64,000 nucleotides of DNA from a virus. Position numbers and translations under genes: made by a program. The first letter of the stretch is position 1. The number at the start of each line of letters is the position of its first letter. Under the pieces are notes generated by a model, which did no database searches, was not told the origin of the DNA, and was given only the letters and a program-made list of their open reading frames with translations. Below are positions 4,882-57,291 of the stretch, piece by piece. The stretch is from positions 124,001 through 188,000 of the IMG/VR virus record IMGVR_UViG_3300024239_000015; one strand, given 5' to 3'.

Positions 4882-5586
4882 TCAGTTTTTTGTTTGTACG
4901 TAACGGTCTAACAGTTCCCAATTCAATGGCGTATACAAAGGTTCTATTTGTAACCCTTCTTTACTGAACGTGAGTACCTGCCCTTTGTGTTTCTCTATCA
5001 GCCCTAATTCGGCTTTCCCTAGTATCCGGTGTTCCTTTTTATACACCGAGTATTTCTTCCATCGAGCTTGCATTTTCTTTTTATCTCTGGTGTCCTTAAA
5101 GTCTCCAGCAAAGAAGCTCTGGAATAAACCCAACTTTGCTGTAGGTAAACCACACACCCGCACCACGGCTTCTGACTGTTGGACAAAGACTTGATCTACA
5201 GCCTGTTCTTTTAACGCCTCGAGGTGTTCTACTAATTGTCCTTCTGCGTCTTTAAAAACCTTCAGTACTTTCCCTACCGTAACACGCTCCCCTACGGTTT
5301 CTGTTAAACGTTTCGCTAGACTCCCCATGCGTTTATACAACAATGAAACGTCCTCCACCAACAAGTGTTCAAAGAACGCAACCTGCGAGCAGCTAGACGT
5401 ATTCCCAAACGACTGCGTGTACGTAAGGTCTGGGTGATACAACACTTGTAGACAGGCAGATATTTCTTTTGGGGAGATTCCTAATTCTACTTTCATGTAT
5501 TTACGGATCTGTTTGTTCAGTAACTTATCGAATACCACGACTGGTTCTTTATGACTGTAGTCTCCGTATTTCATCACTCTACGCAT
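4882..5586 (-). CDS. Hypothetical protein (234 aa)
   Basis: Lysine-rich soluble protein of 234 aa that opens the leftward unit 5586-3563. The first ATG is used (MRRVMKYGDYS); a second ATG four codons later is also possible. The protein is helical in the middle (HLEALKEQAVDQVFVQQ) and very basic near residues 165-190 (DTRDKKKMQARWKKYSVYKK), which could bind nucleic acid. A clear promoter-like motif lies 35-52 bases upstream. Function unknown. Confidence 0.7.
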   Translation of the reverse strand: MRRVMKYGDYSHKEPVVVFDKLLNKQIRKYMKVELGISPKEISACLQVLYHPDLTYTQSFGNTSSCSQVAFFEHLLVEDVSLLYKRMGSLAKRLTETVGERVTVGKVLKVFKDAEGQLVEHLEALKEQAVDQVFVQQSEAVVRVCGLPTAKLGLFQSFFAGDFKDTRDKKKMQARWKKYSVYKKEHRILGKAELGLIEKHKGQVLTFSKEGLQIEPLYTPLNWELLDRYVQTKN

Positions 5587-5620
5587 GGTACGTATACCTT
5601 TGATTGATTGTCTCTACCTG

Positions 5621-5638
5621 TATATTAAATACCTGTAA
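5621..5638 (-). promoter_or_regulatory. Leftward promoter-like motif
   Basis: Minus strand reads TTACAGGTATTTAATATA, matching the recurrent motif TATAGGTATTTAATAT. It stands between a terminator-like hairpin (5660-5680) and the gene starting at 5586, the standard arrangement for unit boundaries in this window. Confidence 0.6.
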
Positions 5639-5659
5639 TTCTTTCCAGACCGCATAGAC

Positions 5660-5968
5660 GGGAGGGGTGTGTCCCCTCCCTCTTAGCTACTGGACTCTCG
5701 TCTTAGGAGAAGGGTAGTGGGTGTAAGCACCCACGCTACTCCTGTCTGTCTAGAGAGAGTACTACCTCTCTCTAGGGATAGGGATGGTGAGTGTCTGGAC
5801 ACTCACACTACTGAAGGATACTGTCTGTATTATGACAGACAGTTCTCTCTCCTGTATCTGTAGATACAGGGAATAAGGATATCGTTCATAGAGAGGATAA
5901 GGAAGTCATTCACTACGTTCATTCCTCTATACCTTATCTCTCTATTCTCTCTACTATATTAACTAATA
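5660..5968 (-). ncRNA. Candidate leftward structured RNA: tandem hairpin array
   Basis: Gene-free stretch between the leftward operon (start 5586) and the rightward endolysin pair. It holds a row of strong hairpins: GGGAGGGG/CCCCTCCC (5660-5680), GTGGGTG/CACCCAC, CTAGAGAGAG/CTCTCTCTAG with loop TACTAC, GTGAGTGTC/GACACTCAC, CTGTCTGT/ACAGACAG with loop ATTATG, CCTGTATC/GATACAGG, and a longer imperfect GATAAGG/CCTTATC arm near 5900-5945. The leftmost hairpin resembles the unit-ending hairpins elsewhere (followed by TATGCGG), and a partial promoter-like motif with TTAATATA lies at 5953-5968. A leftward transcript is therefore the simplest reading. A replication origin, packaging signal or terminator array remains possible. 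No convincing protein is encoded. Confidence 0.4.
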
Positions 5969-6105
5969 GTTACACACACAAAAAGCCCCACCCCAACCCC
6001 TCCCATTGCTGGAAAGAGGCAGTAGTCAGTGACTACATAGTATACGTAGACTCAGTGTAAAAAATAACTATTCTTTGATACAAAGAGTAGTGAGCGAGGT
6101 GTGTG

Positions 6106-45988: not shown

Positions 45989-46180
45989 GATACCACTGAA
46001 TCCTTTTACAGTCTCTTTTGAAAAGAACGAAGCTAATGGGAAAACGCTGTACTAAGCGACCTTAGTTGGACGCTACCTAAAAGCTCGGGTCACCCCGCGT
46101 GACCAATTCAACCAAGCGACTTCTAAACGTTCCACGGTTTAGGGAGTTGCGAGGCTGAATGATCGTAGATTACTCAAAAA
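45989..46180 (-). promoter_or_regulatory. Structured leader upstream of tail-anchored protein gene
   Basis: On the minus strand three perfect 6-bp hairpins follow one another: CTAAAC/GTTTAG (loop CGTGGAAC), GGTCAC/GTGACC (loop GCGGG), ACTAAG/CTTAGT (loop GTCG). A fourth, ATTCA/TGAAT, overlaps the GTG start. It begins directly after a degenerate promoter motif. Could be a regulatory 5' leader or an independent small RNA. Confidence 0.45.
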
Positions 46181-46181
46181 A

Positions 46182-46201
46182 ATAATATATATCTGTAATG
46201 G
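46182..46201 (-). promoter_or_regulatory. Leftward promoter-like motif (degenerate)
   Basis: Minus strand CATTACAGATATATATTATT preceded by GTCGAATC; same spacing as the stronger copies of the motif. Confidence 0.45.
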
Positions 46202-46215
46202 ATTCGACACGGCAT

Positions 46216-46242
46216 AGAAGGAGAGCACGAAGCTCTCCTTCT
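46216..46242 (-). terminator. Terminator-like hairpin after capsid gene
   Basis: AGAAGGAGAGC / GCTCTCCTTCT, loop ACGAA, followed on the minus strand by ATGCCGTGTCG. Lies about 20 bases after the capsid stop. Confidence 0.7.
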
Positions 46243-46264
46243 AAAGGGTATTCCACAATGGCGC

Positions 46265-48487: not shown

Positions 48488-49033
48488 TTAATGCGTTTGT
48501 TCCAGCGCACAGAAAAGTTTGAACATTTCTGACTGTTCCAGCTCCCGGTGCGTCATCATTTTATTCAGCTCAATCAAGGTTTGTTCTAAGAACGCACTTT
48601 GTTCAAACTGAATCCAACTCCCCACGCCCATAAAGGCGATGGTTTCGTCAGAGACGCAGCACGGTACATAGGATGTTCTACGTACTGTAACGGGGACTGA
48701 GATCTCACTCAGCTCCACCCCACTCCGTTCTGCTACAGCCACTGCTGTATCGAACTCTGCTTCTGCAGCTTGTAGCTTGCTGCGATGTTTGGTTAACCAC
48801 GCATCGTTTTGTGGGTGGTCGGTAAAACTTTTAAAAGCGCCCGTTAGCCCTTTCAAATACCGTTCACGGCGATTGTGGTATGCGACGTAAAAACATACGT
48901 CCTGTACAGATAATTTGTCCTCCAGTAACGAGAGGTTCGTAAAGTCACTGACTGGTATTTGTCTAGACGTCGCTAGTTCTTTAAACCACTCTGGGATTAA
49001 AGCGACGTAACGAGTCACGGGATTTTGCATCAT
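48488..49033 (-). CDS. Hypothetical protein upstream of capsid (181 aa)
   Basis: 181 aa, soluble, predominantly helical, starting MMQNPVTRYVALIPEWF. Transcribed ahead of the capsid gene in the same direction and divergent from the helicase. Not recognised; could be a head assembly factor by position. Confidence 0.6.
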   Translation of the reverse strand: MMQNPVTRYVALIPEWFKELATSRQIPVSDFTNLSLLEDKLSVQDVCFYVAYHNRRERYLKGLTGAFKSFTDHPQNDAWLTKHRSKLQAAEAEFDTAVAVAERSGVELSEISVPVTVRRTSYVPCCVSDETIAFMGVGSWIQFEQSAFLEQTLIELNKMMTHRELEQSEMFKLFCALEQTH

Positions 49034-49084
49034 AGTGAAATCCGCTTTTAAAAGGTTTATGGTTAATTAACAACAGGAGTTACG

Positions 49085-51012
49085 ATGGACGCTACCATGA
49101 TTCTGGTGCAGGCTTTATCTCTAGCCTACTGGGAAAGCCGTTTACAACACACGTCCGGCGGGTCCATACAATTGCTTAGCAACGTGTTAGAAGAAGTCCC
49201 TATCCCAGATCAGAACATCGATGGGGATCGTACACGAGAGATCGTCGTGGGGTTACGTGGTTTAGTGCTGCAGTATATCAACAAACCCGACCAAGGTGCG
49301 ATGAACCTTGGTACACTCCTGCAACGAGTAAGGATTATCTGTCGTGATCAAAATTCGATCTACGACGCATTTGCTAATGGTTTAGCAGATGGCTTAGAAG
49401 GCATTGAGATTCAAAAACGTTGCTTTTTATACGCACAGGAACTTTCTGACTTTGTGAACTTACGGAAGTTTCAAAAACAAGTCAAAGGGTTCTACGCCAA
49501 ACACGCGTACTCAGGCGAGCAGATCGACATCGCTTCAGCCGCAGCAGAAATGATCGAACAGTTAGAGCACTACGTGTATCACCGCGAGGGAGCTTTAATA
49601 GACGGAATTTCAGGGATTGTCGACTATGTCGATATTTCTGACGAAGAGAAAATGCAGGACTTGTTTAAGAAAGCTCAGGAGGAGTCGTCTTCTGAGGGTA
49701 TTCTGAAAGTAGGCTGGCAGGGGCTGACTCGGATGTTCGGTTGGCACGGCGGTCTGAGGCGAGGCGACTTTTACTTAATCGGTGCGCTGCAACACAACTA
49801 CAAATCAGGGATGGTTCTGAACCTCACTAAACAAGTTGCTTTGTATAACACACCGTACATGATCGACCCGAAGAAGAAGCCACTGATACTTGTTGTAGCC
49901 GCTGAAAACGCTACGACAGACAACATGACGTTTTTGTACTCTTCTTTAGTAGAGAATGAAACACAGCAACCAGCGGACTTGACTAGGGTCTCCTACGAGG
50001 AGATGACGTCCTATGTGAAGCGACGTTTAGGCGTGAACGGATACCACTTCCACCACGTACGTGTAAACCCCTCTGACTTTGGTTACCCAGAACTCTTTAC
50101 GTTGATTCTGAAACTAGAAGCAGAAGGATACGAGATACACCTACTGACGATTGACTACCTGAACATGTTCAGTAAAAAAGGTTGTACGGCTGGTGCCCAA
50201 GGGCAAGACGTGCGTGACCTATTTAGACGTGTAAGAAACTTTTGTGCTCCTTAATTACAGGGCGTTAAAGCCGTAAGGTTTTAATGAAACCTCTCTGAAC
50301 TGCTGGAAACCCCTAAAGCTGTTTCACCACTGCGAGGCGAAAGCCAAAGCCACGGTTTGAAAACGAAACGGATGTACAATGGGCAACCGTGAGACCTAAG
50401 GTCTCCTGTAGCAGCCAAGTCCCCTCCCGTCCTTGAGACGCGGGGAAAGGTTCAACGACTATCCCGTAGCTGGGAGTAGGACTCAAGTGAGTCCCAAGTG
50501 GAGAGCTCCTCCTATTCTACTAAGAGTAGAGGATGAAATGATATAGTCTGTTCTGTAGGGAAAGCCTACAGCTGCGTACCCACGCTGTGAAGCGTAAGAC
50601 GCGGGAGAGGTCTCACGAACCTCTCCGAACATAAAAGAGAAGAATAGCGGTCATGACACCGGCTCAGATCAGCACAGAGGCGAAGTACTTGTTGAGGAAT
50701 GGTGTAGATGACTTCGTGAAAGAAATCGCCAACAAAGGCTACTGGGACTCCTGTAAAACGATCGACCAAGAAGTCGATATGGAAATGTTGATCCATATCG
50801 TGAAACTCGATGGTCGGAGTTACTTAACGGTACAACGTGGGAAACACCGTGGCTTAGGCACCCGCATGACACCTGAGACAGATCTGTATACCGTACTTCC
50901 GTTTGAGCCTGTAGGTGGTATACGAGATGACATCCATGGTCGTGATACCAGTATGTCTCGTCCAGGGGGCGCTAACCTACACGGGGATGGCGGTGAGTGG
51001 TTTGCAGCATGA
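49085..51012 (+). CDS. DnaB-like replicative helicase, split by a group I intron
   Basis: Two exons: 49085 to about 50251 (389 aa) and about 50638 to 51012 (124 aa). Exon 1 has a modified Walker A GALQHNYKSG (Lys240, Ser241) and a Walker B strand IHLLTIDYLN (Asp357). Exon 2 opens with RRIAVMTPAQIS, the position of the DnaB-type conserved Gln motif, so the intron interrupts the catalytic core. Unspliced, translation would stop at 50254 and lose that motif. The joined protein of about 513 aa has normal length for a phage DnaB-family (SF4) hexameric helicase. Start behind AGGAG; exact splice sites are not certain. Confidence 0.8.
50252..50637 (+). ncRNA. Group I intron without homing endonuclease
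   Basis: The insert separates two halves of the helicase frame and has the group I core: a 5' strand AACGACTAT at 50454-50462 pairing through GACTAT with ATAGTC at 50543-50548 (P7), a hairpin GGACTC/GAGTCC (50479-50494), CTGTAGG/CCTACAG, and GAGAGGT/ACCTCTC near the 3' end. The start TAATTACAGGGC resembles T4 td-type introns, and a T precedes and a G ends the proposed intron. About 386 nt, no reading frame for an endonuclease. The 5' boundary could be 50249. Confidence 0.8.
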
Positions 51013-51401
51013 TCGACTACTATCTGTGGGGGATACTCCTTAAAAGTATCCTCGTGCTTATCTATTACTGGAATAAACACGAGCATCGAATTGCGTCAAG
51101 ACAACTCAACGTCACAGGACACCTTACAGCGATTTGGTCAGCGTGTATCTTAGCGTATACGCTCTGTCGTCAAACCCCTGTGCTTTTAGAGCAGTGGTTA
51201 TACGCCGTCGCTACTGTTGCGTTATTGGAGTTTATACTCTGGGTCCTTGAAGTACATTTCAAGCGAGTCTCTGTACTTAGAGGAAAACTTCTGTATAAAG
51301 AACACATGGACATCACCAAGGTCTTGCAAGGATTTGTACGCAGTAAAGCAATCTGGCTGTATTTACCCTACTGGAGTTTTTTACTCTGGTACAGCGCGTA
51401 A
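51009..51401 (+). CDS. Multi-pass membrane protein (130 aa)
   Basis: 130 aa from ATG at 51009, overlapping the helicase stop (ATGA). Three or four hydrophobic segments: YYLWGILLKSILVLIYYW, LTAIWSACILAYTL, WLYAVATVALLEFILWV and WLYLPYWSFLLW, with positively charged loops. Co-translation with the helicase suggests a possible link of replication to a membrane, but this is inference. A holin function cannot be excluded. Confidence 0.65.
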   Translation: MIDYYLWGILLKSILVLIYYWNKHEHRIASRQLNVTGHLTAIWSACILAYTLCRQTPVLLEQWLYAVATVALLEFILWVLEVHFKRVSVLRGKLLYKEHMDITKVLQGFVRSKAIWLYLPYWSFLLWYSA

Positions 51402-51420
51402 TACAAAAAAAGAAATGAAG

Positions 51421-51462
51421 CAAAAAAAGTGCATAGAGGAGGCCCGAAGGCCTCCTCTATGC
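51421..51462 (-). terminator. Rho-independent terminator of structured RNA
   Basis: GCATAGAGGAGGCC / GGCCTCCTCTATGC with a TTCG-type loop, then ACTTTTTTTG on the minus strand. The plus strand has no T-run after it, so it serves leftward transcription. Confidence 0.8.
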
Positions 51463-51855
51463 TAAGTAAGGTATGAAAGGTTAACACGGGTCTACGGACG
51501 AACATGGGTGAGTATTTCTACGATCATTCGTTAGCGTAGGTTTAGGTGTTGTGTGACTTTTAGTCATGCCGCCGTCGCGGTGTCTTGGAAGACGACTAGA
51601 AGTCAGTGACAAGGCAGGTTGGAAGGCTGCGCTCACCTTTATTACGCCGACTGTTCGTGTGGCACGCAAACGAGACGCGTGTGGAGGACTTTTCGGGACT
51701 CTTACATGACGCAGTAATCTTGGGGACTGCGTGGGCCGGAAACCACCGGTTGGCCGCTGCGCGGACAAGCAGTATTCCTTGTTTACCAAAGCCGGAGAGC
51801 TCTTGCTGTCTCCTGTAAAGGAGAGTAGCCAAATTGCCGCATCTTTCATACCTTA
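51431..51855 (-). ncRNA. Candidate large structured non-coding RNA
   Basis: Leftward RNA of about 425 nt. Its ends pair through a perfect 13-bp helix: 51843-51855 with 51467-51479 (TAAGGTATGAAAG on the plus strand, reverse complement CTTTCATACCTTA). Inside are many stems, e.g. ACGCAGT/ACTGCGT, GGCCAACC...GGTT..GGCC, GTCTT/AAGAC, TGACT/AGTCA, CTACG/CGTAG, CACGC/GCGTG. A terminator hairpin (51431-51462) with seven T on the minus strand directly follows the closing helix. An overlapping 122-codon frame exists but is Ser/Pro/Arg-rich and not protein-like. No known RNA family recognised (not RNase P, tmRNA or 6S by motif). Confidence 0.55.
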
Positions 51856-52077
51856 AACTCCCTTCGGATGTTCGAGCACGAACGCTCGTGTAGATACACT
51901 CGTCAGAGTGCAGCTACGCAAACGAGGTGGTTAGCGAGGTTTGGTATTAATCGCGTACACTGTGAAAACGTACGTTTTACCATTGATCGCTAACTGAACA
52001 GTTTGGGGTTCTTGCATGGTGGATGTGTCCTAAAAGTTGAGTGGGGGAATGGGGGAATGTTCTACAGCGGCATAAAA
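51856..52077. other. Gene-poor spacer between structured RNA and 80-aa gene
   Basis: Holds the possible 28-aa frame, a short inverted repeat CGAGCGTTCGTGCTCG near 51875-51890, and a purine-rich stretch GTGGGGGAATGGGGGAATG on the plus strand near 52040-52058. No copy of the conserved promoter motif is visible, so the start of the structured RNA is not located. Confidence 0.5.
51931..52017 (-). CDS. Possible small protein (28 aa)
   Basis: Short frame MQEPQTVQLAINGKTYVFTV... of 28 codons with a plausible beta-hairpin sequence and AGGA ten bases upstream. It lies between the 80-aa gene's terminator and the structured RNA. Protein-like composition, but too short to be sure. Confidence 0.4.
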   Translation of the reverse strand: MQEPQTVQLAINGKTYVFTVYAINTKPR

Positions 52078-52097
52078 GTGGGAGCTCACGCTCCCAC
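52078..52097 (-). terminator. Terminator hairpin overlapping stop codon
   Basis: GTGGGAGC / GCTCCCAC, loop TCAC; on the minus strand followed by TTTTATGCCGCTG. The stem includes the stop codon of the 80-aa gene. Confidence 0.75.
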
Positions 52098-52328
52098 GTA
52101 GACACGTTGTGCCTGTGGAAAGTTGCGGGCTAGTAATTCAACATTCAGAGCAGTTTGGATGTCACGGATAAATTGCGCATCTAACTCTTCTGGAACGTCA
52201 CCTACTAACTCGTATGCAACTTTTACGGTTTGTTCGCCGGATTTTACTACGACGAAACCGTCTGGGATACCGACTTCACCTAATTGTTTCAGGTGGACTT
52301 CTACGTTGGGTCTTACTAAGGTTGCCAT
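52086..52328 (-). CDS. Hypothetical protein (80 aa)
   Basis: 80 aa, soluble, beginning MATLVRPNVEVHLKQLGEV, transcribed as its own unit from a strong promoter-like motif (52395-52414) to a hairpin that covers its stop. Alternating hydrophobic strands then a helix (ELDAQFIRDIQTALNVELL). Single-gene unit with its own promoter suggests high or special expression. Not recognised. Confidence 0.7.
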   Translation of the reverse strand: MATLVRPNVEVHLKQLGEVGIPDGFVVVKSGEQTVKVAYELVGDVPEELDAQFIRDIQTALNVELLARNFPQAQRVYVGA

Positions 52329-52394
52329 GGTGTTTGCTCCTGTTGGCTGGGTGGAAAATTCCTAGGGATCTGACGTCAAGCGTCATATCAACTT

Positions 52395-52414
52395 TATATT
52401 AAATATCTATAAAA
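52395..52414 (-). promoter_or_regulatory. Leftward promoter-like motif
   Basis: Minus strand TTTTATAGATATTTAATATA preceded by TCGAATC; one base differs from the copies at 28519 and 32954. Confidence 0.65.
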
Positions 52415-52426
52415 GATTCGAGTCAG

Positions 52427-52457
52427 GCTACTCTAGGGCACTGCGCCCTAGAGTAGC
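52427..52457 (-). terminator. Terminator hairpin
   Basis: Perfect 13-bp stem GCTACTCTAGGGC / GCCCTAGAGTAGC with a 5-base loop, just after the gene ending at 52468. Confidence 0.75.
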
Positions 52458-52467
52458 TTTATGTCGG

Positions 52468-53808
52468 TTAAGTTTTTGGGATAAAATACACCATGACCGA
52501 AGCCGTGGTTTGGTACGTCTCTGTGGTAAACCCAGGACGTTCTAACGCGGTATATGCCTCTACCCCAAGGACTGTGCCGTAGCCTTCTACTAAGCCTTGT
52601 GGGCCTTGATAGAAAATACGCATGGGCATACCGGGGACTAACAACTCAGGGTCTGCATCATTCCATACGAAATGTGCCAGTTGACCTTTACGCGCTGAGA
52701 GTTTAGAAAGCTCTCGTGCGATGTTGTCCGTCACACGACGCTGAAGCATCGGAGCGTTGTTGAGTTTAGACTCACGCTCCTGGACTTGTACTGTCGCTGC
52801 GGTTTTATCGGGCTGTAAAACACCCACTCCGTTCTCGACTTTCACAAACTCATTAAACTGTTTGGTGGCAACGCTAAACATTGCACCATTGCCTTCTGAG
52901 GTTTGTTTTTGGTCACTAAAGTCAAAATGCTTTACTGCCCCAGTAATTACAACAGTCACTCGATCGTTCTTTACGTCGTAGGTTCGTTCGGTGATCACCT
53001 GGTTGCGTGGGATGATATAAAAGTCCACGGCATATTTACTTTTGTTGTATCGCGTCGTGTCATACAACGGATATACATACAATAACTGTCGGTGTGAAAA
53101 AATACCGATGTCGTTGTTGTAGATCCCTCCCCCATGTTTCTGTAGATACCCTGGTAGGTTATAAAGCTCTACACCGTGTTGGATGTTGATCTGTTTCCTG
53201 ACGGTTTTGTTATCAGGCGTCACAAACTCCAACCCCTTTAATCGCTCGTTCTCTAACCCTTTGGTTTGGCTGATCGCTTGGGTGAGTAAACACTTGAGTA
53301 AATCTCCTGGTGTGGAGTTGACGTAAGGTCCACCAAAACGAACGTATTGCAGTTTATCAAACTCTATTGGAATCAACTGAAACTTTACGTTGACAAAGGT
53401 CTGAGTCCCGCTGACTTGTGCAAGACCTGACATACTGTTCTGTCCTAAGAGTCCAGGGTCTGTGTTCTCTAAAAGGACAGCACGGTAAGTACGCAGCGTA
53501 GGTGGGAGGGACTTGATGATCCCTCCCTGTAGTTCACCGACGACAATCCGTTTCAAATCTACCTTTAAGTCGTTTCTGTGTGGGTACACGTATTGACGGT
53601 ATTGTTCTAACACCATTAAGACTTCCAGAAAGCTTGTTTCCATAAACCCTTTGACAAAGTCTTTCTCTTGGTCAAAGTTTACTACCTTCCATGGAGAGAA
53701 CTTTCCTTTGGGGACTCGAAACTCAGCCGTCAGTTGTACAAACACAGGCCGAGGGGCACGTTGGATTTGCCGTACTGCCTCGGTGTAAAACATCGGTTTT
53801 AACGCCAT
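52468..53808 (-). CDS. Virion structural protein (446 aa)
   Basis: 446 aa, last of four tightly coupled genes (57291-52468) with overlapping ends. Beta-rich, no membrane segment; segments such as VYPLYDTTRYNKSKYAVDFYI and FVWNDADPELLVPGMPMRI suggest a tail or baseplate part. The C-terminus GMPMRIFYQG...GYGTVLGVEAY has the look of the barrel domain found in several phage tail hub proteins, but this is only a hint. Confidence 0.6.
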   Translation of the reverse strand: MALKPMFYTEAVRQIQRAPRPVFVQLTAEFRVPKGKFSPWKVVNFDQEKDFVKGFMETSFLEVLMVLEQYRQYVYPHRNDLKVDLKRIVVGELQGGIIKSLPPTLRTYRAVLLENTDPGLLGQNSMSGLAQVSGTQTFVNVKFQLIPIEFDKLQYVRFGGPYVNSTPGDLLKCLLTQAISQTKGLENERLKGLEFVTPDNKTVRKQINIQHGVELYNLPGYLQKHGGGIYNNDIGIFSHRQLLYVYPLYDTTRYNKSKYAVDFYIIPRNQVITERTYDVKNDRVTVVITGAVKHFDFSDQKQTSEGNGAMFSVATKQFNEFVKVENGVGVLQPDKTAATVQVQERESKLNNAPMLQRRVTDNIARELSKLSARKGQLAHFVWNDADPELLVPGMPMRIFYQGPQGLVEGYGTVLGVEAYTALERPGFTTETYQTTASVMVYFIPKT

Positions 53809-54437
53809 GCGCGTACCCTCTCCCGACCTAAACCACTGAGTGCTGCGTTAAACACGTCAGGGGCTTCGTTGGTGTAGGTTTTCTGCTCACGTTCAAAGAG
53901 TGGGTTTGTGCCCACACCGTGTCTCCAATACTCCAACATCTGCAAGAAGTCAGAGGGAGGAGCCACAGGCTCAGGTCGCCATCGCTCTACCACAGGGTGG
54001 AGTGCGTTGATAAACTCTTGTAAGTCACTCGCGTCTTGTAAGACACGTTGTTTCTCAGGAGACGCTTGAATGGCACGTTGGCTGAAAAACATCGACTCAC
54101 TAAAGTACTCCGCGAGGACTTGGACGTGTTCGACCAGTAAGTCGTACAACTTTGCGATTTCTTGGGGTTTCTCGAACTGCACTGGAACGCCATCCAAGAT
54201 CAACTCTAGAATCGATTTGATCTGTGGAGTTTGTTCTGGGTCTCGTACCGCAGGGAGCTGACACAACACCATTTGCTTTAAAGCTGCTTCGTCGTGTTTT
54301 AAGTCCCCACTGGTGGGAGTTCCGTACAACTGGATGTGGTGATCAGTCAGTAAGTGGACTTGTGGAGCTTGTACCCACCAGAAGTAGTTAAACAACTTCC
54401 AGATAGGGGTAGCCTCCAAAGAAGGATACGTACGCAT
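53799..54437 (-). CDS. Virion structural protein (212 aa)
   Basis: 212 aa, mostly helical, overlapping both neighbours by a few bases (TAATG at the start). Starts MRTYPSLEATPIWKLFNYFWW. No recognised domain; grouped with structural genes by coupling. Confidence 0.6.
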   Translation of the reverse strand: MRTYPSLEATPIWKLFNYFWWVQAPQVHLLTDHHIQLYGTPTSGDLKHDEAALKQMVLCQLPAVRDPEQTPQIKSILELILDGVPVQFEKPQEIAKLYDLLVEHVQVLAEYFSESMFFSQRAIQASPEKQRVLQDASDLQEFINALHPVVERWRPEPVAPPSDFLQMLEYWRHGVGTNPLFEREQKTYTNEAPDVFNAALSGLGRERVRAWR

Positions 54438-55759
54438 TAGTTAATCGCTCCTAAAGCATACACGCTTAAAAACAACACTAAAGGAGTAAAGTAAAACCGC
54501 TGTACTTCACTGAGGTTGTCAAGATCGCGTGCTAAGGTTAATACCCTGGCGAGCTGAGGGGTTTGATTGTCTAACACCGCTTTGAGTTCTTGCTCTAGTA
54601 CACACGTAGCAACGTAGTCCCTGTAGAACGCCTCAGAAACGACGTAGGCGGGCTCTAGAGGCCATAGGGGTACAGACACACTACTTTGTGTGTGTAAGAG
54701 CCCTGAAAGCTCTGTGGTGCTGATTTGAGCACTGAACGATTGGATCGTAGGTGGGGTACCTATCCAGTTAATCGGACGTGTGGCGTTGGGGTGGTCTTGA
54801 GCAGACTTCACCACAAGGTCAATCCCACTGTAGCGAATGGTTCTGTACAAAGGAGGTTGGAATACCGTCTTTGTAGGCAGTAACGCAAAATCACGACGAC
54901 ACCGCACCAGCTGCTTCGTGTCTCCTTTGAGTAGAACGTCAAATAGTGTCGTGACTGTTGCTGAGTTCACGTCATCGCACACCAGCTGTTCCGCTTTCTG
55001 GTAGAACCGATAGCGGTCTTTCGGAACCAGGTGGGAGATAAAGTCTACGACGTAAGGATCGTACGTGGTAGTGTCTTGGTCAGGAACCAAGAACGCTTCA
55101 AACTCATGCACGTAGTTTTGTTCAAAGTACTGGTTGATCAACGTCTGCTGTAGAGTCAGTAACGTCTGGTACTGTGCGTACTCCGACTCGACTAACATTG
55201 GGTTTCTACCCACACGTAAGAAATCACGAACGTAGATCACGTCCTTAGTGACTTTCTTTTCAAGATCTCGTGACGTGACGTCGTCCAGTAAGGAACGTAA
55301 CTCGTAACGGATTTCATACGCAGGTTGCTGGAAGATCGACTTCGGCTCAGCTGACGTTAGCGTAAAGAACCCAAGCTGTCCCGGACGGACTGGGGCGATA
55401 AACATATCCCCTACGTTGGGTACCACGTGCGGAAATACAAACGCGGTCCCTTCGACTTTGAACTCAGCGTTTTCAGTTAAGGACTGAGGCTCAATAGGTG
55501 TCGTGACTTTAAACTCAAACTCACGGATTCGCACGTACTGCTGGAGTGCAGGAGGGATACTGGGTGAGTACGCTGTAGGCTCACTGTCTACCCCTAACAC
55601 CTGACTGTAGTACGTAACTACCCACTTGGAGCCTTTGACGTGTGTGAGTAAATCGGTCGTTGGGATTAACCGCGTGTCGTTGGTAATCCCTCGGTAGGGT
55701 TGAGTCACTAAGTCCACAGGGGTTTGTGGAGGTGTGGTGTCATCGGTAAAGAAACTCAT
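54437..55759 (-). CDS. Virion structural protein (440 aa)
   Basis: 440 aa with ATGA overlap to the previous gene. A beta-rich N-terminal half (SVSVPLWPLEP, FEFKVTTPIEPQ) and helical C-terminal region (LEQELKAVLDNQTPQLARVL), no membrane segments. Probably a baseplate or tail component of the coupled block. Confidence 0.6.
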   Translation of the reverse strand: MSFFTDDTTPPQTPVDLVTQPYRGITNDTRLIPTTDLLTHVKGSKWVVTYYSQVLGVDSEPTAYSPSIPPALQQYVRIREFEFKVTTPIEPQSLTENAEFKVEGTAFVFPHVVPNVGDMFIAPVRPGQLGFFTLTSAEPKSIFQQPAYEIRYELRSLLDDVTSRDLEKKVTKDVIYVRDFLRVGRNPMLVESEYAQYQTLLTLQQTLINQYFEQNYVHEFEAFLVPDQDTTTYDPYVVDFISHLVPKDRYRFYQKAEQLVCDDVNSATVTTLFDVLLKGDTKQLVRCRRDFALLPTKTVFQPPLYRTIRYSGIDLVVKSAQDHPNATRPINWIGTPPTIQSFSAQISTTELSGLLHTQSSVSVPLWPLEPAYVVSEAFYRDYVATCVLEQELKAVLDNQTPQLARVLTLARDLDNLSEVQRFYFTPLVLFLSVYALGAIN

Positions 55760-57291
55760 GCTAAACGTCCTCTGCGGGTTTTAATTAGTAACTCATTGAA
55801 CATCCACCACCGGACTTCAAAACTGGTTGCACGTTGTTGACCTATTTTGCGTAGTCGTCCTACGACCTTGTCGTACCCTTCTTTCTCTACTAAGCGATTA
55901 GCGATCACCCGAGGAGTAAGTCCTTGGGGTTGCATAGGCGGATACACCCAGCGTAAGACCTTTAAACACACCTGAGGGTTTTGACGAAACCGTAGTTCGG
56001 TCTGTGTGTCTAGCAGGTCTAAGCCCCACAGGACGTTAAACCGAAACCGGTACTCTAACCGTGGGTCTAAGTCACGACTGCAAGTGATCACGAAGTTCTC
56101 GTCCATACTTAAGTAGGTGTAGTCAATGGGCACACCCCCTTCGTAGATCTCAATCTGTACTGGACAGTTATTCGCACCAAACAAAAATGCACGTTCTTGT
56201 TTTAGATACTCTAAAAGCTCAGGAACGATTTCGTACTCACCCAACTGAGTTAACGTCAGTACCGTACGAGGGGTGTCTGGGTTAATCAACAGCAACGAGG
56301 TGACGATGTTCAAGTAGTTGGCGTTTGGATACTTCGGTAACCAATCGTCGTAATGAGGGATAGTAATCCCTACCGTGTAGTCTTTCGTCAACCACGAGAA
56401 ACTCCGTGGTGTGTCAAGGATTTCGTCAATAAATCCTTTATCCGCTAAAGCTTCTGGTTTATAACTCGGTAGACGGTCATACAGTTTCGCTGGTACGGGC
56501 TGTTGATGCACCAATACAGGAATCTTCCCAATAATCGAAATCGGACGTTGGTACTGGAACACAAAGTCAAACGTCGCTTCGTACGTTGCACCGGTGGTTT
56601 TACTGGGTTCACTAGGTAGGGTATCACGGAACCACCCTTGTACGTTGATCTGGTCTTCCTGCACGTACGGTTCCATTTCCGAACCATCCAGTTTGGTAAT
56701 AAACGTAAACTTTTCTAGTGCAGCGTGGTTCTTCCAGTACACACCGAAGTCTTCTGCGTAGCCTTGTTTGGTTTCCCGTAAACGATGTAACTCTAAAAGG
56801 GTAGCAAACGCTGCAGGTGGGAATGGATACTGGTAACTGACTTTGTGGAGCTGATGTGCTTTGTTATTCCGTAGCTGCCTTACGAAGTTGTCTCTCCAAC
56901 GTACCGCGTCTTGTTTGTCTTCAGAGCGGAACGTGAAGGACAACGTCACTTCCATCGTGGTCGTAACGGGACGGTAAGCGATCCCTAAGTCGGTGTCTAA
57001 GAACAAATACTTCTGATCTTTCGTGGTAGAGTTCTGCGCGATCAACGTCGGTTCGTACTCGAGCTCTTGGTGTTTCACAAACACCGCTTGACGTTGGTCA
57101 AACTGAGGCCCTACTCCTTCTTCTAACCATCCTGAATTTGTTAAACGCAGGACTTGTTGGTCTCCAAAGAACCCCACGAAGGTTTGGTCGTGTATACCAC
57201 TATTGGCTAACACCTGTTTTAAAATAGATACTGCCACAGGACGGGTGATGCTCTGGTACGTCTCTGGTAGCATGTAGTTGATCAAAGGCAT
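55756..57291 (-). CDS. Virion structural protein (511 aa)
   Basis: 511 aa from ATG at 57291 (MPLINYMLPETYQSI); GGGAG is eight bases upstream, whereas the TTG 21 bases earlier has none. Opens the four-gene coupled block. Rich in Tyr, Phe, Arg and Pro with strands such as VTTTMEVTLSFTFRS. Typical phiKZ-like tail or baseplate protein in size; no known domain seen. Confidence 0.62.
   Translation of the reverse strand: MPLINYMLPETYQSITRPVAVSILKQVLANSGIHDQTFVGFFGDQQVLRLTNSGWLEEGVGPQFDQRQAVFVKHQELEYEPTLIAQNSTTKDQKYLFLDTDLGIAYRPVTTTMEVTLSFTFRSEDKQDAVRWRDNFVRQLRNNKAHQLHKVSYQYPFPPAAFATLLELHRLRETKQGYAEDFGVYWKNHAALEKFTFITKLDGSEMEPYVQEDQINVQGWFRDTLPSEPSKTTGATYEATFDFVFQYQRPISIIGKIPVLVHQQPVPAKLYDRLPSYKPEALADKGFIDEILDTPRSFSWLTKDYTVGITIPHYDDWLPKYPNANYLNIVTSLLLINPDTPRTVLTLTQLGEYEIVPELLEYLKQERAFLFGANNCPVQIEIYEGGVPIDYTYLSMDENFVITCSRDLDPRLEYRFRFNVLWGLDLLDTQTELRFRQNPQVCLKVLRWVYPPMQPQGLTPRVIANRLVEKEGYDKVVGRLRKIGQQRATSFEVRWWMFNELLIKTRRGRLA

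Follow-up and report, generated by a model that had tools for sequence, protein, structure and literature searches.

A candidate terminator-ended non-coding RNA unit in a gene-poor interval of a phiKZ-related jumbo phage

We tentatively read a gene-poor interval of a phiKZ-related jumbo phage as a lineage-specific, non-coding transcription unit on the minus strand that ends at a terminator, a reading to which we give somewhat less than an even chance. The interval lies in a window of 64,000 nucleotides (bases 124001-188000 of a 233,377-base virus record), where an earlier note had proposed a new large structured RNA at 51431-51860.

A gap between convergent genes

PHROG searches matched the major head protein (phrog_3231), a DnaB-like helicase (phrog_3213) and structural proteins (phrog_3245, phrog_3013), and the tract sits between the helicase and the structural genes, in agreement with the placement given by the earlier note. 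The 446-aa neighbour and the helicase matched hundreds of phiKZ-related jumbo-phage records, with 25-40% identity among the matches listed. The virus is therefore a phiKZ-related jumbo phage without a close relative among the named phages.

On the plus strand, the helicase exons are followed by a 134-aa frame ending at 51401. The minus strand presents, in order, an AT-rich promoter motif (52411), an 80-aa gene (52328-52086), its terminator (52097-52078), the gap and a second terminator (51462-51431). Since the units of both strands end there, the gap is a convergent boundary. No convincing gene is seen over its roughly 680 nt (51402-52085), in line with the gene-poor tract of about 600 bases described earlier. 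A possible homologue of the 80-aa gene, an 84 aa ORF in phage L013, was spotted by eye; tblastn runs gave no confirmation of it. The features of the region are as follows (window coordinates).

51402-52085, no strand assigned: gene-poor interval between the convergent 134-aa (plus) and 80-aa (minus) genes, from ORF lists and codon scores
52396-52411, minus: TATAGATATTTAATAT, AT-rich promoter motif ahead of the 80-aa gene and one of eight places in the phage that match at up to three mismatches
52086-52328, minus: 80-aa gene, upstream of the gap on this strand, codon score 0.34
52078-52097, minus: 80-aa gene terminator, with a stem of 8 bp and the tail TTTTATGCCG
51931-52017, minus: 28-codon frame MQEPQTVQLAINGKTYVFTVYAINTKPR, overlapping candidate domain 1, with a gene-like codon score of 0.20
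51868-51996, minus: candidate RNA domain 1, predicted to form three hairpins (51994-51930, 51923-51884 and 51888-51870)
51467-51855, minus: candidate RNA domain 2, with a perfect 13-bp helix as its closing stem (51467-51479 against 51843-51855), from sequence and repeats
51481-51849, minus: 122-codon frame, judged not coding, with a codon score of -0.165, under every real 122-codon window
51554-51605, minus: predicted three-way junction, helix TGACTT-TAGTC / GACTA-AAGTCA plus two 4-bp hairpins, pair probabilities 0.94-1.0
51431-51462, minus: intrinsic terminator, 14-bp stem, UUCG loop, tail ACTTTTTTTG

Transcription signals and predicted folding

The hairpin at 51462-51431 (GCATAGAGGAGGCC-TTCG-GGCCTCCTCTATGC, followed by the T-rich tail) is found on the minus strand only, so that the T-tailed terminator confined to this strand, as claimed earlier, is present as a 14-bp hairpin. 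By sequence, it places the predicted 3' end at an intrinsic terminator, as in a terminator-ended UTR RNA. A genome scan, however, revealed dozens of hairpins of the same style, with GC-rich stems of AGGGAGG- or GAGGAG-type and T-rich or TTATGC tails; the nearest counterpart is a near copy at 23877-23847 with the tail GCTTCATTTC in common. A terminator of this kind is what any gene of the phage may have at its end and no mark of a dedicated RNA gene; what the earlier note called "its own terminator" is a generic gene-end hairpin. Several gene-end hairpins of this phage have the tail TTTATGCCG.

The promoter-like motif TATAGGTATTTAATAT occurs at eight places in the whole phage with up to three mismatches (seven with up to two). 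Window positions are 5637, 28535, 32970, 52411 and 60333 (-), often with TTTCGAA before the motif. Early promoters of phiKZ-related phages are AT-rich (PMC5312081), and by analogy the AT-rich motif may be an early promoter, of the virion RNA polymerase class. The late promoters of phiKZ are a bare TATG, with transcription starting at the G (PMC5312081). A TATG lies within the tail of the 80-aa gene terminator, with its G at 52071, and resembles such a late start site; a late-type start at about 52071 is therefore possible, the motif being too short to count as evidence. No dedicated promoter was recognised for the candidate RNA: the whole-phage scan gave no match to TATAGGTATTTAATAT at the start of the unit (up to three mismatches), and a sigma-70 scan of 49000-56000 returned no promoter.

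The perfect 13-bp long-range pairing is present exactly where the earlier note had placed it, with arms TAAGGTATGAAAG (51467-51479) and CTTTCATACCTTA (51843-51855). Its predicted pair probability is about 0.98 in a 651-nt fold and drops to about 0.75 once the fold takes in the upstream 80-aa gene. Such a repeat appeared in 6 of 3000 shuffles (about 0.2%) of the 608-nt stretch alone, while the genome holds three perfect inverted repeats of at least 13 bp with a span of 60-500, against zero to three in five dinucleotide shuffles. The helix is thus notable locally but not genome-wide, being rare in the 608-nt shuffles and within the shuffle range for the genome.

Folding energies were compared with shuffled sequences. 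The 430-nt interval noted earlier scored z = -6.4 on the minus strand and -5.5 on the plus strand, values that include the terminator hairpin; the 398-nt core without the terminator gave z = -2.9 on both strands. Inside the 13-bp helix, the 363 nt folded no better than shuffles (z = -1.3 minus, -0.8 plus). The 608-nt unit 51463-52070 reached -3.2 on the minus strand versus -2.0 on the plus strand, and the largest strand contrast was seen for 51863-52060 (-3.7 minus versus -1.4 plus). For minus-strand tiles of 398 nt drawn at random from this genome, the mean z is -1.3 (sd 1.6): 16.7% of them reach -2.94, and 10.3% reach -3.24, a threshold that comes from the 608-nt unit yet is set against 398-nt tiles. 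Because 10-17% of random minus-strand tiles score as well, the predicted folding is ordinary for this genome. A large ornate phage RNA would be expected to fold clearly better than the genome at large; the values for core and unit are equalled by this share of the random tiles, and the folding ascribed to the stretch was not confirmed as more than chance.

Taken together, the strand of the terminator and the better fold against shuffles on that same strand mildly support an RNA from the minus strand. A minus-strand non-coding unit is plausible; going on from it to a large structured RNA would depend on folding energies that 10-17% of the random tiles reach as well. An 11-bp direct repeat, ACGCAAACGAG, is found at 51664-51674 and 51916-51926, one copy per candidate domain.

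Relatives and competing explanations

The candidate matched no Rfam covariance model, including those for GOLLD, ROOL, OLE, RNase P, tmRNA, 6S and introns: at gathering level the whole window gave no match, and a search of 51410-52100 at E up to 10 returned only a chance scaRNA match. The earlier impression that no known RNA class is visible therefore stands. ARAGORN predicted neither tRNA nor tmRNA genes, in the window or elsewhere in the phage. A plus-strand motif suspected to resemble RNase P found no support in Rfam and was discarded for that reason.

Sequence searches were equally negative. Matches in blastn against phages, plasmids and E. coli were terminator-like or due to chance, where there were any, and whole-record blastn of 26 related jumbo phages gave hits at chance level only. 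When viral contigs were scanned five times for exact patterns (27-, 16- and 17-mers), only the same phage came back, together with chance hits without extended similarity; the bacterial genomes searched did not contain a 20-mer of the stretch. For two sub-domains, of 125 and 129 nt, single-sequence covariance models were run on 31 records and found only the phage itself and one chance match of 15.9 bits. Just one further record has the stretch, a contig with 99.99% identity over 17 kb; it is the same phage and gives no variation.

The candidate is also absent at the syntenic site in L013, AhC3_1, PhiEaH1, Eowyn, pEa_SNUABM_54 and AH06. At this place AhC3_1 has the 446-aa homologue and the helicase only 52 nt apart, PhiEaH1 has a single ORF, Eowyn, pEa_SNUABM_54 and AH06 have differing sets of small genes, and L013, the nearest relative, has other small ORFs. 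From the lack of relatives and the variable syntenic site it follows that the element is recent or very fast-evolving, at a junction prone to insertion.

These observations bear on the main rival, which ranks close behind the terminator-ended non-coding RNA and to which we give roughly one chance in three: the stretch would be spacer or insertion debris without RNA function, the helicase-structural junction being a variable site where the phage gained DNA and the hairpin a plain gene-end terminator between opposing units. The 52-nt junction of AhC3_1, the single ORF of PhiEaH1 and the varied small genes of the other four relatives agree with such a site, as do the dozens of same-style terminators and the unexceptional folding. 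Nevertheless, the stretch has no recognisable gene remnant, a 13-bp helix is rare in a sequence of this length, and phages seldom retain 600 nt of useless DNA. The inverted repeats might instead act as DNA, in a replication origin or recombination site; together with the one direct repeat they lie close to the helicase gene. We consider this improbable, as iterons are missing, the GC skew has no extreme at the stretch (its minimum is at about window coordinate 106000, outside the window), and a DNA element does not predict a better fold of the minus strand.

Two coding explanations were weighed by codon usage, with a log-odds score for which 76 long, non-overlapping frames of the phage genome served as training set. 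Real 122-codon gene windows score 0.22 on average (sd 0.11, minimum -0.139), against an off-frame mean of -0.23. An orphan protein encoded by the 122-codon frame, or by another frame in the stretch, is very improbable: 122 codons are open and GGGAG stands about 9 nt before the ATG, but the score of this frame falls below the lowest real window and near the off-frame mean, and neither tblastn nor Pfam gave a match. Its single-sequence AlphaFold model, a kind of model that is weak evidence, has a mean pLDDT of 49.8 and no secondary structure. With off-frame-like codons, no homologue and no predicted fold, coding by this frame was judged unlikely and rejected. The other frames tested in the gap have negative codon scores, except the 28-codon frame. 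Translation of this frame (52017-51931), with the remainder as its long structured 3' UTR, is a minor possibility with only a small share of our confidence: its score is close to the real-gene mean and AGGA lies upstream of the ATG, whereas it counts just 28 codons, overlaps an 8+5-bp hairpin and has no homologue among phages or in this genome.

The proposed RNA and its place among phage RNAs

On the preferred reading, a non-coding minus-strand unit, RNA polymerase would enter the gap in one of two ways: transcripts begun at the early-type promoter (52411) would read through the terminator of the 80-aa gene, or a TATG of the late type in the tail of that terminator would serve as start, at about 52071. 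Transcription would stop at the hairpin 51462-51431, giving an RNA of 380-640 nt whose 3' end the terminator hairpin would cap and which the 13-bp helix would close. Capped and closed in this way, the product would, we propose, resist exonucleases and persist as a stable phage non-coding RNA or a processed 3'-UTR RNA, like the small RNAs of phiKZ. The terminators, the non-coding nature of the 122-codon frame, the capacity for the 13-bp helix and the lack of the stretch in relatives come from the analysis itself; transcription, stability and function are what we infer here. In favour of this RNA we count the minus-strand terminators on both sides of the gap, the non-coding 122-codon frame, the locally rare helix (0.2%), the better minus-strand fold and the precedent of UTR-derived non-coding RNAs known experimentally in phiKZ (PMC8545117). 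Against it we count the genome-typical folding energy, the helix interior that folds no better than shuffles, and the lack of a homologue and of a promoter match. That the stretch represents a new class of large structured phage RNA (about 380-640 nt), so far in this lineage only, made from the minus strand with a terminator at either side and the 13-bp helix as closing stem, is unlikely; nothing beyond the locally rare helix supports it positively.

The closest parallels are the non-coding RNAs of phiKZ, the PHIKZ298 3'-UTR RNA of about 100 nt and the p40 5'-UTR RNA of about 180 nt (PMC8545117). Like them, the candidate would be a non-coding RNA from the intergenic space of a phiKZ-related jumbo phage, and the PHIKZ298 RNA probably ends at the terminator hairpin of its gene, as the candidate would end at a terminator. 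The phiKZ RNAs, however, are proven by Northern blot, shorter and made of two stem-loops, while the candidate is predicted only and 380-640 nt long. With GOLLD and ROOL (Rfam classes; PMC12286853) it shares a large predicted structure encoded in a phage, but it has no Rfam match even at E 10, only modest folding and no covariation support; those RNAs are often near tRNA islands, and this phage genome has no tRNAs. A group I catalytic intron (RF00028) lies about 860 nt from the candidate, in the helicase gene. Unlike such introns, the candidate has no RF00028 match, interrupts no gene and ends in a terminator.

Other RNA features of the phage were seen along the way. The helicase intron occupies window positions 50242-50640 (plus; 47.2 bits, just under the cut-off of 50), flanked by exons at 49085-about 50243 and about 50640-51012. 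Its bases 50287-50373 (87 bp) are 87.5% identical to an unannotated stretch beside RNA polymerase fragments in the unrelated podophage Pseudomonas phage PAP02. A second group I intron of the same phage lies at bases 5377-5767 of G000 (minus, locus L061; RF00028, 53.8 bits). At window 5640-6040 (minus), an array of near-perfect hairpins (z -6.2) lies in a gap between genes, at the end of which stand a terminator and a promoter of the early type. Its 25-35 nt element GGAATGAACGTAGTGAATGACNTCCTT is also found in intergenic regions of six Aeromonas jumbo phages, among them the apparently syntenic gap of AhC3_1, a shared sequence that hints at an Aeromonas-type host. The array is a stronger RNA or DNA-element candidate than the 51431-51860 stretch, and both it and the helicase intron are clearer RNA features in the same window. 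Downstream of the major head gene, the gap at 45989-46264 (minus) scores z -6.7 on the minus strand, partly from a 12-bp terminator hairpin.

As it stands, the interval illustrates how a strong terminator hairpin and a genome-typical inverted repeat can make an ordinary gap resemble an ornate RNA. Should the interval yield a stable RNA, this would be a long addition to the few non-coding RNAs known in phiKZ-related phages, which transcribe their DNA with their own polymerases.
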